Program-made: the position numbers and the translations under genes
Assembly: GCA_963691705.1 (NCBI GenBank)
Contig: OY829546.1
Coordinates: forward strand, 2,738,001 to 2,802,000
Reading direction: 5' to 3'
Origin: Viola odorata
Taxonomy: Eukaryota > Streptophyta > Magnoliopsida > Malpighiales > Violaceae
Length of the DNA stretch: 64,000 nt
Shown here: in pieces, positions 48,274 through 63,657 of the stretch
Position numbering within the stretch: position 1 is the stretch's first letter
How the letters are laid out: each line of letters starts with the position of its first letter
Notes under the pieces: generated by a model
What the model was told of the DNA's origin: nothing
The model's database searches: none
The model's input: only the letters and a program-made list of their open reading frames with translations

Positions 48274-49811
48274 TGATTGCATTGTATTTCATCATGTTTT
48301 ATTGTCCATTTACTAGTTATTTTGGACAGTAAATCTGCTGATTTATCCTTATTTTCCCACATCTTAGTAGATCTGATCTGGAAGGCAGCTTTTGAGGAAT
48401 TTGAACAGAAGAGAGCTGGAGCAGCATTACCCGAGTCTAGGCCTGAATCTTGGCCTAGACACATTCGCATCCGACGTATGGCGCATACCAGGATTGTCTT
48501 GGCCAAGACTGCGGCCAAGACACTTTCGCGATAAAGACATCACTTTGGAGCATTTGGACCGCTTTCAGCGTTGGACTCTTACAGCTGGCACGTAGCAGCT
48601 GTTCCGCCATTTTAGAGGGATCTGAAGACAATCTTATGTAGAATCCCGAATGGGATCTCCCTCTTTATTATTTAGCGATTTAGTTTCCATTTTTAAGAAC
48701 AATTAATTGTAATAATCTTTTAGGAGATTTTCTAGGGATTAGAGTTGGATTGGGACAGAGGTTCTGAGGGCTATTTTAGCAAGACATTATTCACCTCTGA
48801 CCAGATCGAACACTACGCAATCCTTCTTCTCTTTTCTTAGTTCGACATTGTTACACTTTGCTCCGGATTTTATTATCTCGGATTTATATTATTTATGCAA
48901 TTAAATACTTTATCTTTTTATTCATGAGTATGAGTAATTAAACACCCATTCTTGGTAAGGGTTGATGAGCTGAAGTTCTTATGCACTCGTAAGGCATCTT
49001 TCGTACTTAATAATCTCTTACTTTGTATTTATTTATTTCTTGAACTTAATCTATCGCTTACTCACTAGAGGCAAGGTTTGATCATCCTTGTACCCTAGTA
49101 GAGAAGAGTTGTAACCAGCCTAGAAGGAGAGGGAGTACCCGCCGGCTAGACGAAGTAGGTGACTAGTCTCGCGCCAGACTAGAAGAATAGGTAATCTAGG
49201 TCGAGACCAGATTGACAACCTAGGGTTTCCGTGGGGAAACACCTTGACCTAGGTACTGTCTTCCCCTGTACCATTGAAGAGGTGAGCAACCATTCAAGAC
49301 AGCAGTCAAATGGATAAACCCTTTAACCAGCAAGGTGTCCCTTGGCTAGGATTATCAGGAGAGGGAGTACCCGCCAGGTAATTTGAAGAGGAGGGAAGAC
49401 AAGAGTGAACAGGAGTACCTCCACTCTATAGCAGTGCTACAAACGAAGAGATGAACATCCTAGAGTCCGTGATCGAGTCATAAGAACGCAAGCTCTCATA
49501 TCACCCTTACCTGGAATTCCATATCACTAGACTTATTCCTAATCTAGACCCCAGTCTTGGCCTAGACTCTGGCCAATACTACTTTAAACTGTTTTCACTT
49601 ATTTTTGTTTTGTCTTTCAGTTTCAGATACCAACCAAACCCAAACTCAGTGACGAGGAAGTCAAACTCAAGAACTACGTTTCCTAGAGGTCTCTGTGGAC
49701 GATCCTCTTACCATCATCTACAAATCTTTGTAGACAGTAATAAGTTGTATTTCTACCCCCCAATTCCATAACTATTTCACTACTATATTTGACGTGTTCG
49801 ACAAGCGATCA
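48274..49811 (+). repeat. 5' LTR of element 1
   Basis: Proposed ends are TGAT...ATCA, an inverted match at the canonical TG/CA termini, and the right end abuts the PBS. The left end is chosen by this match and by resemblance to the LTR of element 2. It cannot be proven because the 3' LTR lies outside the window. It includes three motif clusters (48435, 48496, 49543) and a duplicated ggagagggagtacccgcc (about 49126 and 49361). Confidence 0.7.
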
Positions 49812-49816
49812 AATTT

Positions 49817-49834
49817 TGGCGCCGTTGCCGGGGA
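49817..49834 (+). other. Primer-binding site, tRNA-Asp type
   Basis: tggcgccgttgccgggga starts five bases after the LTR end. It is complementary to the 3' end of plant tRNA-Asp, as used by Athila-group elements, and is the minus-strand DNA primer site. Confidence 0.88.
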
Positions 49835-61732: not shown

Positions 61733-61737
61733 ACAGA

Positions 61738-63657
61738 GCCAGCCGCCGCCAGAGCAGGCTAATGAAGAAGATGGCAGCTGCCGGAGCATCCAACCCAGCT
61801 CCGACAACCGCTGCAAAGAAACCCACTCCTGCTACTGCCGCCGCTGCTACTGTTACCACACCACCACCACCACCTCCGGCGAAGAAGAATTCAGCCACTG
61901 CGCCGCCCAAGAAGTCTGGGCGAGTCAAGCAGGTGGCTCACAAAAAGACACCGACTAAGAAGCCGGCAAAAACCCCAATTACAGTTCAGTCACCACCCCC
62001 ACCAAACCCTAAGCAGAGCAAGACCACTGCCGCTCCTTCCACTGCCAAGAGCAAAGGGAAACAGAAGGCGGTCGTGGAGGATTCTATTGAGGACGACGAA
62101 GACGATTTAGTCTTAGCCAAAACTGCGGCCAAGACTCCTAAGGTACGATCTCTTCCTCCTCTGCACACACTCAAAGGATGGTTGAAATTTGATACGCCAG
62201 ACCTTAAAGCTAAATTGCGTGATATGCATGCCTGTGATATCCCTGCTTTTGCTCGATTAGAGTTTGATTTTTTGAATGAGATGACATTAGGGGATAAAAT
62301 TAGGGAATATGTATATACGATTGGTTGGGTCCCTTTTATGTATGTTGAGTGTGATGCTTTTGCTGAACTGTGTCTTGAGTTTCACACAACCTTCTGGTTT
62401 GATGAGGACACCTTGTATGTTAGGGGTAGAGACAAACCAGATTTTGCTGCTCCCGATGTGATTAATTTTAGGTTGTGTGATAAATGGAGTCACTTGTCTG
62501 TTGATGCCTTCAATGCTTTGCTAGGATTTGCCTTTTCTGATGAAGCTATTTTTGATTATCCCCAAGATTGGGATAATAATGTTGCTTTTAGAGAGATCAC
62601 TGGTGATCCGAATGCTAAGTTTGATAGGAACTCTAAGGCACATGCCATTTTAAACCCTGCTCTTAGAATGCTCCATAGAGCCTTGTCTATCAACCTTTCG
62701 GGGAAGACAAAGGTCTCTGGAAATTTAGCCAAGTCTGAATTGTTTCTGTTATGGTGCATTATGCACAAGAAAAAGGTCAACTTAGCCTTGTATTTGGTTC
62801 AAGTATTGCATTCGCGTGAGTCTAAAACTAAATTGATTTTTGGATCATTGATTACTTGGCTTGCTATTCAAACTGTTAAATTCGATCCTGCTGCTTCTGA
62901 TTTGTTTAGATGTTGCTCCCCCAAAATCCTGGATTTTAGATCCTTCGACCAAATGGGACATTTCCATTTGGAAGGAGAGTTTGTTGCTTGTAATACAGGT
63001 TTTACACCAGTGGCGGACCACATCTTCTCAAAGAAAAATGGAGGACAGTACAAGTTGCGTCCCATAGTCATCCCAGGAGAAGAAGCAGAAGGCGATCTTG
63101 CCCAGGATCTAGGCCAAGACGCTGGCCAAGACACCACCATTCCTGCTGCTGCAGCCGATCTAGGCCAAGACAAGTGCCAAGACCCCCCTGCCAGTAGCAC
63201 CAGTGAGCCACCAGAGTGGGCAAGAGAATTCCAAGCTCGCCAGCTGCTCATCCTTGAGCAGCAGAAGATCATCCTCGATCGTCTTGGCCAAGACAAGGGC
63301 CAAGACCAGAATCAAGCACCCGTCAGAAACGTGGTGCCTCAGTGGGCCCAATGCCTTAATGACAGGCAGGACGTCCTCCTTGAGCAGATGAAGCTCACAA
63401 GGAAAAACGCCCTCCACGTGTACCAGCACCTCGAAGCCCATTTCAAGCTCCTCAAGGATCTCCATGACAATCTGAGCTCAGAGAGTGACTCAGAATCCTC
63501 TGATGAGGAGGATGAACCCCAGCCATCGGCCCAGCCAGCAAACGCATCCCGCCCGTCGATGCCTCCTCCTCCACCAAAAGAGCCCAAGCCAATATCCTCT
63601 CCTGCCCCTGATCTAGGCCAAGCCTCTGGCCAAGATCCCCAGACCCCAGCAACATGA
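61738..63657 (+). CDS. Env-position ORF of element 1, 3' part (ATHILA ORF1-like)
   Basis: About 640 codons in frame with the 56078 fragment; the internal ATG at 61762 is probably not the natural start. The N-terminal part is a basic Ala/Pro/Lys-rich tract. The middle is the plant retrotransposon ATHILA ORF1-like domain (TLKGWLKFDTPDLKAK, FWFDEDTLYVRGRDKP, WSHLSVDAFNALLGFAF, LFLLWCIMHKKKVNLALYLV). The C-terminus is Gln/Asp/Pro-rich with coiled-coil potential and repeated LGQD segments from the palindromic motif. I see no signal peptide or clear membrane anchor, so an envelope role is doubtful. Function unknown. It was an open frame before element 2 inserted. Confidence 0.8.
   Translation, partial: ASRRQSRLMKKMAAAGASNPAPTTAAKKPTPATAAAATVTTPPPPPPAKKNSATAPPKKSGRVKQVAHKKTPTKKPAKTPITVQSPPPPNPKQSKTTAAPSTAKSKGKQKAVVEDSIEDDEDDLVLAKTAAKTPKVRSLPPLHTLKGWLKFDTPDLKAKLRDMHACDIPAFARLEFDFLNEMTLGDKIREYVYTIGWVPFMYVECDAFAELCLEFHTTFWFDEDTLYVRGRDKPDFAAPDVINFRLCDKWSHLSVDAFNALLGFAFSDEAIFDYPQDWDNNVAFREITGDPNAKFDRNSKAHAILNPALRMLHRALSINLSGKTKVSGNLAKSELFLLWCIMHKKKVNLALYLVQVLHSRESKTKLIFGSLITWLAIQTVKFDPAASDLFRCCSPKILDFRSFDQMGHFHLEGEFVACNTGFTPVADHIFSKKNGGQYKLRPIVIPGEEAEGDLAQDLGQDAGQDTTIPAAAADLGQDKCQDPPASSTSEPPEWAREFQARQLLILEQQKIILDRLGQDKGQDQNQAPVRNVVPQWAQCLNDRQDVLLEQMKLTRKNALHVYQHLEAHFKLLKDLHDNLSSESDSESSDEEDEPQPSAQPANASRPSMPPPPPKEPKPISSPAPDLGQASGQDPQTPAT

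Follow-up and report, generated by a model that had tools for sequence, protein, structure and literature searches.

The stretch of DNA analysed here (hereafter, the window) is 64 kb long and comes from the 699-Mb genome of Viola odorata. From position 48274 to the end of the window, its plus strand harbors an Athila-type long terminal repeat (LTR) retrotransposon, element A, throughout which a short palindromic word recurs in coding and non-coding sequence and which is split by a second, nested element, B. The 5' LTR of A spans positions 48274..49811 (plus strand), with TG at 48274 and CA at 49810-49811, its ends being inferred from TG...CA beside the primer site; a primer-site-like sequence, TGGCGCCGTTGCCGGGGA, starts at 49817, just after it. 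The gag open reading frame (ORF) occupies positions 49884..51935 (plus strand; PF03732, E 1.3e-17), and a CCHC knuckle was recognized in it by eye. It is followed by the pol ORF (51953..55543, plus strand), which encodes reverse transcriptase (RT), RNase H, and integrase (PF00078, PF17917, PF00665, and PF17921). According to Pfam, the domain order is gag and then RT-RNaseH-integrase, and the pol homologues have the integrase core in common; we take Athila to be the lineage name of these relatives. The third ORF (ORF3), in the env position (61762..63657, plus strand), is PF20167-like, with a score of 44.8 bits at a cut-off of 45, and in one protein of the collection (P0057) the precomputed domains place a PF20167-type domain joined to a pol related to that of A. 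The 3' LTR of A is absent within the window.

The nested element B (56354..61732, minus strand) is Athila-like, lacks pol and ORF3, is flanked by ACAGA at both ends, and carries a motif of its own, TTCRRG-RY-CYYGAA. Its 5' LTR is present, whereas a second LTR was not found in the window despite the ACAGA at both ends; at another locus (L026), a B-like copy is followed by a second stretch of B's LTR.

An earlier note on the same DNA, made from the letters alone, had reported a palindrome recurring over the whole of the Athila-like element in at least 16 clusters. Allowing up to two mismatches, GTCTTGGCCAAGAC matches 16 times in the window, compared to 0.27 expected, and none of 100 shuffles reached 16; 15 of these matches fall in A and one (59892) in B. 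The latter, a lone A-like palindrome with two mismatches (59892-59905), adjoins the primer-site-like sequence of B. Each of the 16 positions named in the earlier note has copies within about 15 bp, and the enrichment is stronger than was first stated. "Element-wide" holds throughout A, with the exception of 56354-61732, since that stretch is element B, a distinct element on the minus strand that has a motif of its own.

The word can be split into two half-sites, R (GGCCWAGAC) and L (GTCTWGGCC), which were searched allowing one mismatch. A contains 52 of them, B six, the region 1-24 kb one and the region 24-48 kb nine; 100 first-order Markov simulations of A averaged 2.99 and never exceeded seven. 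Forty-eight of the 52 are grouped in 16 clusters of at least two half-sites, and four are single. The count of clusters is thus again 16, with a different composition: those formerly listed at 63094 and 63157 merge, and a palindrome at 52650-52663 had been missed. Spacings of up to 40 bp (region 48262-64000) follow a strict register, L to R at 5 bp (15 times) or 17 bp (13 times), R to R at 12 bp (nine times), and L to L at 12 bp (four times), while any other spacing occurs at most twice. The fullest cluster reads L L R R, and in most clusters one outer half is missing.

The clusters span the LTR, gag, pol, integrase, spacer, and ORF3, in agreement with the regions first listed, which also named the pol linkers. 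Three lie in the LTR, at 48435..48460 (L L R), 48496..48521 (L R R), and 49542..49579 (L R R, with a weaker fourth half-site at 49542). In gag, one is found at the start (50032..50069, L L R R) and three in the C-terminal part (51139..51164, 51513..51538, and 51573..51598, the last half-site of the third being weak). The pol ORF has a cluster in the protease-RT linker (52484..52521), the palindrome before the RT domain (52650..52663), a cluster in the RNase H-integrase linker (54205..54230), and one in the integrase, where it is a same-length replacement of conserved codons (54968..54994). A further cluster lies in the non-coding spacer after pol (55709..55734). ORF3 has one in its N-terminal part (62110..62135) and, in its tail, two neighbouring clusters (63095..63183) and two others (63281..63306 and 63611..63636). 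The non-coding clusters at 48435, 48496, 49554, and 55709 keep a register identical to that of the coding ones; hence, codon length does not set the spacing.

A DNA repeat inside ORFs might simply be the by-product of shared peptides. The LAKT, LGQD, and SRPRH peptides previously pointed out are indeed visible by eye in the proteins, and LGQDxGQD-like peptides recur in one frame of the ORF3 tail, as this explanation would have it. However, the half-site frame analysis bore out that all three reading frames are used. In 1000 synonymous-codon shuffles per ORF, the density test that had been proposed, the observed number of half-sites was never reached: gag has 11 (shuffle mean 1.72, largest 7), pol 14 (mean 2.90, largest 8), and ORF3 14 (mean 4.15, largest 11). 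These data, together with the non-coding copies and the conservation of third codon positions described below, rule out a peptide repeat as the cause; this explanation is refuted, its chance of being right being close to nil, and the original claim that the nucleotide sequence is what recurs stands.

In pol, the word can be compared with what related proteins have at the same place. The integrase region matched 7104 proteins at E<=0.001, and the aligned relatives were drawn from the 120 listed, with Tanacetum as a frequent source. Across the 54968 cluster, the integrase of A reads VLAKTVGLDRRDWS; its Ala1008 occurs in none of the 119 aligned relatives, 99 of which have Glu, and the 22-residue segment is free of gaps and insertions in 115 of the 119. 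Similarly, Leu236, within the palindrome at 52650, is found in none of 63 aligned relatives, 58 of which are indel-free there. At the 54205 cluster, 87 relatives were aligned, and the 15 best-listed all have at least seven gaps opposite an 11-residue segment of A. The protein with the highest identity among the matches listed (P0068) lacks this segment and, by eye, has Ser in place of Ala1008. Judged from these alignments, sites in A's pol were created at a cost to the protein (Ala1008 and Leu236).

The conservation of the word was examined in seven A-type loci (L015-L021), picked from motif matches on one contig; in two of them (L016 and L017), more than one stretch aligns to the LTR clusters of A. 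At third codon positions, the loci agree with the window in 346 of 397 cases inside half-sites and in 7516 of 10354 outside (Fisher 8.8e-12), and at non-coding positions in 473 of 503 and 9151 of 10483, respectively (Fisher 1.5e-6), values which, like the one below, treat the copies as independent, which they are not. Over all cluster instances, the half-site letters other than W were kept in 1384 of 1481 cases and the spacers in 167 of 216; W was unchanged in 187 of 218 and was A or T in 217 of 218. To correct for ascertainment, the cluster instances lying close to an exact 14-mer, 23 of the 74, were removed. After this correction, third positions were kept in 259 of 300 cases inside half-sites and in 7323 of 10087 outside (Fisher 2.3e-8), the non-W half-site letters in 931 of 1005 as compared to 1219 of 1501 for the 15-base flanks, and the spacers, including the long gap of the merged cluster, in 200 of 269, while W was A or T in all 149 cases and the same letter in 129. 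In either form, 86-87% of half-site third positions are identical to the window versus 73% outside, and spacers 74-77%. The site letters are therefore held, the spacers drift, and substitutions at W are confined to A and T. As far as the examined loci show, the motif of family A is real and under selection at the nucleotide level, third positions being more conserved inside the motif than outside.

These data also bear on the idea that the word is a parasitic micro-repeat, that is, a functionless short sequence copied within the element by template switching. Copying that keeps orientation would match the largely one-way sites of B described below, B contains a local array with 26-bp steps, and the site at 54205 resembles an insertion. 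On the other hand, two of the pol sites appear to have arisen by substitution without a change of length, the half-site letters are kept above the spacers (in the corrected counts given above), and every cluster of at least two half-sites in the seven A-type loci aligns to a cluster-holding stretch of the window and none to a cluster-free one, at a resolution of about 120 bases and with single gained half-sites not counted. Some clusters are eroded; in L015 and L019, gaps interrupt the one at 51139. The micro-repeat, one of the roles originally listed, is disfavoured, and we consider it quite improbable.

Element B has a different word. On its sense strand, 30 copies of TTCRRG-RY-CYYGAA were found with up to two mismatches, compared to two in A, four in 1-24 kb, and seven in 24-48 kb; for the 12-bp core, the counts are 21 in B, one in A, and zero in 1-48 kb. 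Copies follow one another at a 26-bp step six times, whereas random placing gives 0.16 (maximum 3), an excess due in part to one local array of four copies at 26-bp steps with a fifth 47 bp further on (58021..58159, minus strand). B's own ORF has five sites versus a shuffle mean of 1.87, and three of 1000 shuffles reach five. Over five B-type loci, the non-coding core letters were kept in 753 of 781 cases and in 15639 of 17021 outside, which is weaker evidence than that for A. In five B-type loci, B cores number 15-36 and exact A half-sites 0-2; conversely, the seven A-type loci contain no B cores, except for two in L018 and three in L019. The TTCRA of B's word bears a resemblance to the B box of tRNA genes.

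Two neighbouring pieces, L027 and L024, together make up a full-gene B-type element, with LTR sequence 84-86% identical to that of B and a 3' region 84% identical. Compared to A, its gag is 32% identical and its ORF3 33% over 299 amino acids (38% over 225 in another comparison). B sites are present in its LTR, gag, integrase, and 3' region. Since the pol frame is interrupted in this copy, it represents the type rather than a working element. By its sequence, B looks like a shortened relative of such an element, and, in the examined loci, families A and B differ both in word and in ORF3. Within the integrase coding stretch of the same element (L024, 1344-1357) lies a B-word site whose codons, by eye, read FKTPI. 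At a further locus (L028), A-type (gag 72% identical) and B-like sequences lie within one 10-kb stretch; the neighbourhood of A and B is thus not unique to the window.

Both words are abundant in the host genome, with 2089 sites for GTCTTGGCCAAGAC against 17 for the reversed pattern, and 5739 (2916+2823) for TTCRRGACCCCGA, the B form, against 50 (26+24) for controls. In viral contigs, the A-unit pattern was found in three, a number judged to be about the chance level, the B-unit pattern in none, and a search with pol returned nothing useful. Two scaffolds assigned to bacteria, one to Solirubrobacter sp. (L004, 1-9848) and one to Geminicoccus harenae (L005, 1-9030), apparently hold one and the same plant Athila element, with gag-pol ORFs of 2001 and 1998 codons, and are likely plant contamination in bacterial assemblies. 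Neither exact A half-sites nor B cores are present in these two or in the shorter L006; with one mismatch allowed, L004 and L005 have three half-sites each versus 52 in A. Their best dispersed 8-mer scores are 8.1 and 8.4, compared to 18.4 in A and 32.4 in B, and this scoring revealed no strong word of its own in L004; of six 8-kb pieces of the remaining window, five score 5.0-8.0 and the piece at 40-48 kb, with GC-rich local repeats, 15.0. Given these controls, such a strong private word does not belong to every Athila element.

The behaviour of W helps to discriminate between DNA and RNA as the level at which the word may be read. Were the word an RNA signal, each cluster would fold within the genomic RNA into a hairpin of 9 bp with an 8-nt loop (L-N8-R) recognized by Gag for packaging or dimerisation, the two RNA roles named in the earlier note. 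Strong hairpins are indeed predicted: the folding energy is below the shuffle mean in 10 of the 10 clusters given (z from -2.06 to -6.75), most of them L-N8-R or close variants. In the window, the two W letters can pair in 16 of 20 units at offset 17 (permutation P 0.031) and in 10 of 19 at offset 5 (P 0.65); with the copies added, whose units are not independent, pairing is possible in 56 of 79 unique units at offset 17 (P 0.002) and in 15 of 29 at offset 5 (P 0.75). The knuckle seen in Gag and the strand orientation of the B sites would also suit an RNA signal. However, the changes between window and copies are mostly uncompensated: at offset 17, 19 pairs lost pairing, two gained it, six changed at both letters, and 79 were unchanged (three gaps). 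At offset 5 the corresponding counts are 14, 14, one, and 60 (21 gaps). Moreover, the palindrome at 52650 has no listed partner at 17 bp, and of the arm mismatches in B, read on the sense strand, 26 are A.C and one is G.T, which would break sense-strand stems. The free exchange of A and T at W, with G and C excluded, fits a degenerate binding position, and we tend to read the pattern as such more than as a conserved stem; an RNA signal appears rather doubtful. Because G or C at W would create CG or CHG, one reading is that A's word is bound independently of methylation, but the word of B contains CG.

Taken together, the dispersed sites, the fixed register, the degenerate W, the privacy of each word to its family, and the conservation at silent positions fit a sequence-specific binder acting along the element. 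Among the roles first listed, binding sites appear to fit best, and our preferred explanation, to which we assign a probability of roughly 45%, is that the repeats of A and B are docking sites of a binding protein, spread so that the protein recognizes its own retrotransposon family. Its subunits would probably pair on the 14-bp palindrome, the additional half-sites lying at a distance of 12 bp. The binder might be the product of the element's own ORF3, a natural candidate because each family has its own diverged ORF3, though this step is weaker than the former. Binding might keep the element from being silenced in the manner of the VANC proteins, which is the weakest step, and B, which is non-autonomous, would retain the family word so as to be served by a full-gene relative.

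Several observations weigh against the docking-site explanation. Since the seven A-type loci were chosen by motif on one contig, copies that lose the motif are under-sampled. The complementarity of W at 17 bp is above chance, which favours an RNA stem. The B sites in B are oriented (20 forward, one reverse, and nine symmetric), a bias that a plain dimer site leaves unexplained; four further B-type loci give 27 to 6, for sites unchecked against the element strand. The coding third positions of B show no excess conservation over five loci (core, 35 of 42; outside, 974 of 1041). As to ORF3, searches of the protein collection found no relatives, the Pfam scan named no DNA-binding domain, and a single-sequence structure model was unusable (mean predicted local distance difference test score, pLDDT, 37.7). 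Finally, a VANC-like anti-silencing role, plausible and perhaps the likeliest use of the docking sites, is proposed by analogy alone.

The binder might instead be a host transcription factor, that is, a host nuclear factor that binds the words and drives or represses the element, as has been proposed for the boxes of Sireviruses. The CGG-CCG core common to B's word and those boxes (PMC2829016) and the sites in the LTR of A and of B's relatives are in keeping with it. Nevertheless, a promoter role would not require sites within the coding regions of integrase and ORF3, at distances of up to about 10 kb when B is left out of the count, and one host factor does not predict two words in one nucleus, although two factors could. 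We regard host-factor sites as unlikely.

If the docking sites are read by an element protein, this would give a role to the env-class ORF3 and extend VANC-like self-recognition to LTR retrotransposons; the function of ORF3 in plant env-class retrotransposons is called experimentally unproven in the consulted sections of PMC2829016. Even without an element-encoded reader, a motif kept in integrase at the cost of a residue absent from 119 aligned relatives is unusual. A wider scheme, which we put forward as doubtful, would be a private address system, in which each Athila family carries its word along the whole genome of the element, ORF3 reads it, thereby recognizing the members of its family, and protects them from silencing, word and protein coevolve, and non-autonomous elements hitchhike. 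The contrast between two families in one genome makes the coevolution of motif and protein directly testable.

Outside these features, the window harbors an ORF for a MuDR/MULE-type transposase (38437-40614; PF03108 and PF10551) and an ORF with a SWIM zinc finger (41068-41526). Polypurine stretches similar to AGTGTGGGGA recur between 54000 and 60000; among them, AGTGTGGG has six copies versus 0.12 expected. Extra polypurine tracts are mentioned for Athila4 and Calypso in the portion of PMC2829016 consulted.

In the literature searched, which included few subscription papers and parts of PMC12844716, we came across no account of a motif of this kind in Athila, and among the matches listed by a text search with the motif letters, all were unrelated by title. 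The earlier statement that no description was known has to be qualified: element-specific palindromic boxes are known from Sireviruses, in LTRs and around env and not across gag and pol (PMC2829016). According to the sections seen of that paper, the Sirevirus RM boxes are dyad palindromes of 10-20 bp, present in 8-32 copies per element, with a sequence that differs between most elements, and located in the LTRs, mostly in the linker before env, and in a few cases at the start of env (PMC2829016). The words of A and B are likewise palindromic, element-specific, and present in many copies; the CGG-CCG core is in the word of B and not in that of A, which has no CG. Sireviruses are Ty1/copia elements, whereas A belongs to Ty3/gypsy, with RT before integrase and gypsy-type homologues. 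Unlike the boxes as there described (PMC2829016), the sites of A also occur in gag, before RT, in integrase, and in ORF3, and are composite, additional half-sites standing at a 12-bp distance. Maize Sireviruses, again plant LTR elements, also have clusters of palindromes able to form hairpins, and their LTR palindromes are small-RNA hot spots; in the parts consulted, they are described for the LTR regulatory region (PMC5311732, PMC10760457). Retand elements, too, are gypsy relatives from plants in which additional ORFs and repeats specific to the family follow pol; they have tandem repeats, and DNA binding is predicted for their antisense TRP28 ORFs. Dispersed palindromes in gag or pol, as in A, are not described in the portions of the source seen (PMC11963269).

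In the VANC/VANDAL system, as presented in the parts of PMC5735166 and PMC10398659 consulted, a transposon protein uses a dense private motif to undo silencing, and coevolution of the motifs with the protein encoded by the transposable element has been proposed. Short, dense, family-specific motifs that differ between related families are shared with A and B. VANDALs, however, are DNA transposons, while A and B are LTR retrotransposons. The VANDAL motifs lie in very dynamic non-coding tandem repeats, and coding-region probes of VANDAL21 were motif-free (PMC5735166, PMC10398659), whereas the sites of A are dispersed, mostly within coding gag, pol, and ORF3, and kept among the copies examined. 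No VANC family was named when gag, pol, ORF3, and the ORF of B were scanned with Pfam, no direct comparison with VANC having been made. The closest precedents are the palindromic boxes of Sireviruses and the VANC motifs; private-motif systems are already known, and what is new in element A is the spread of the motif through coding sequence.

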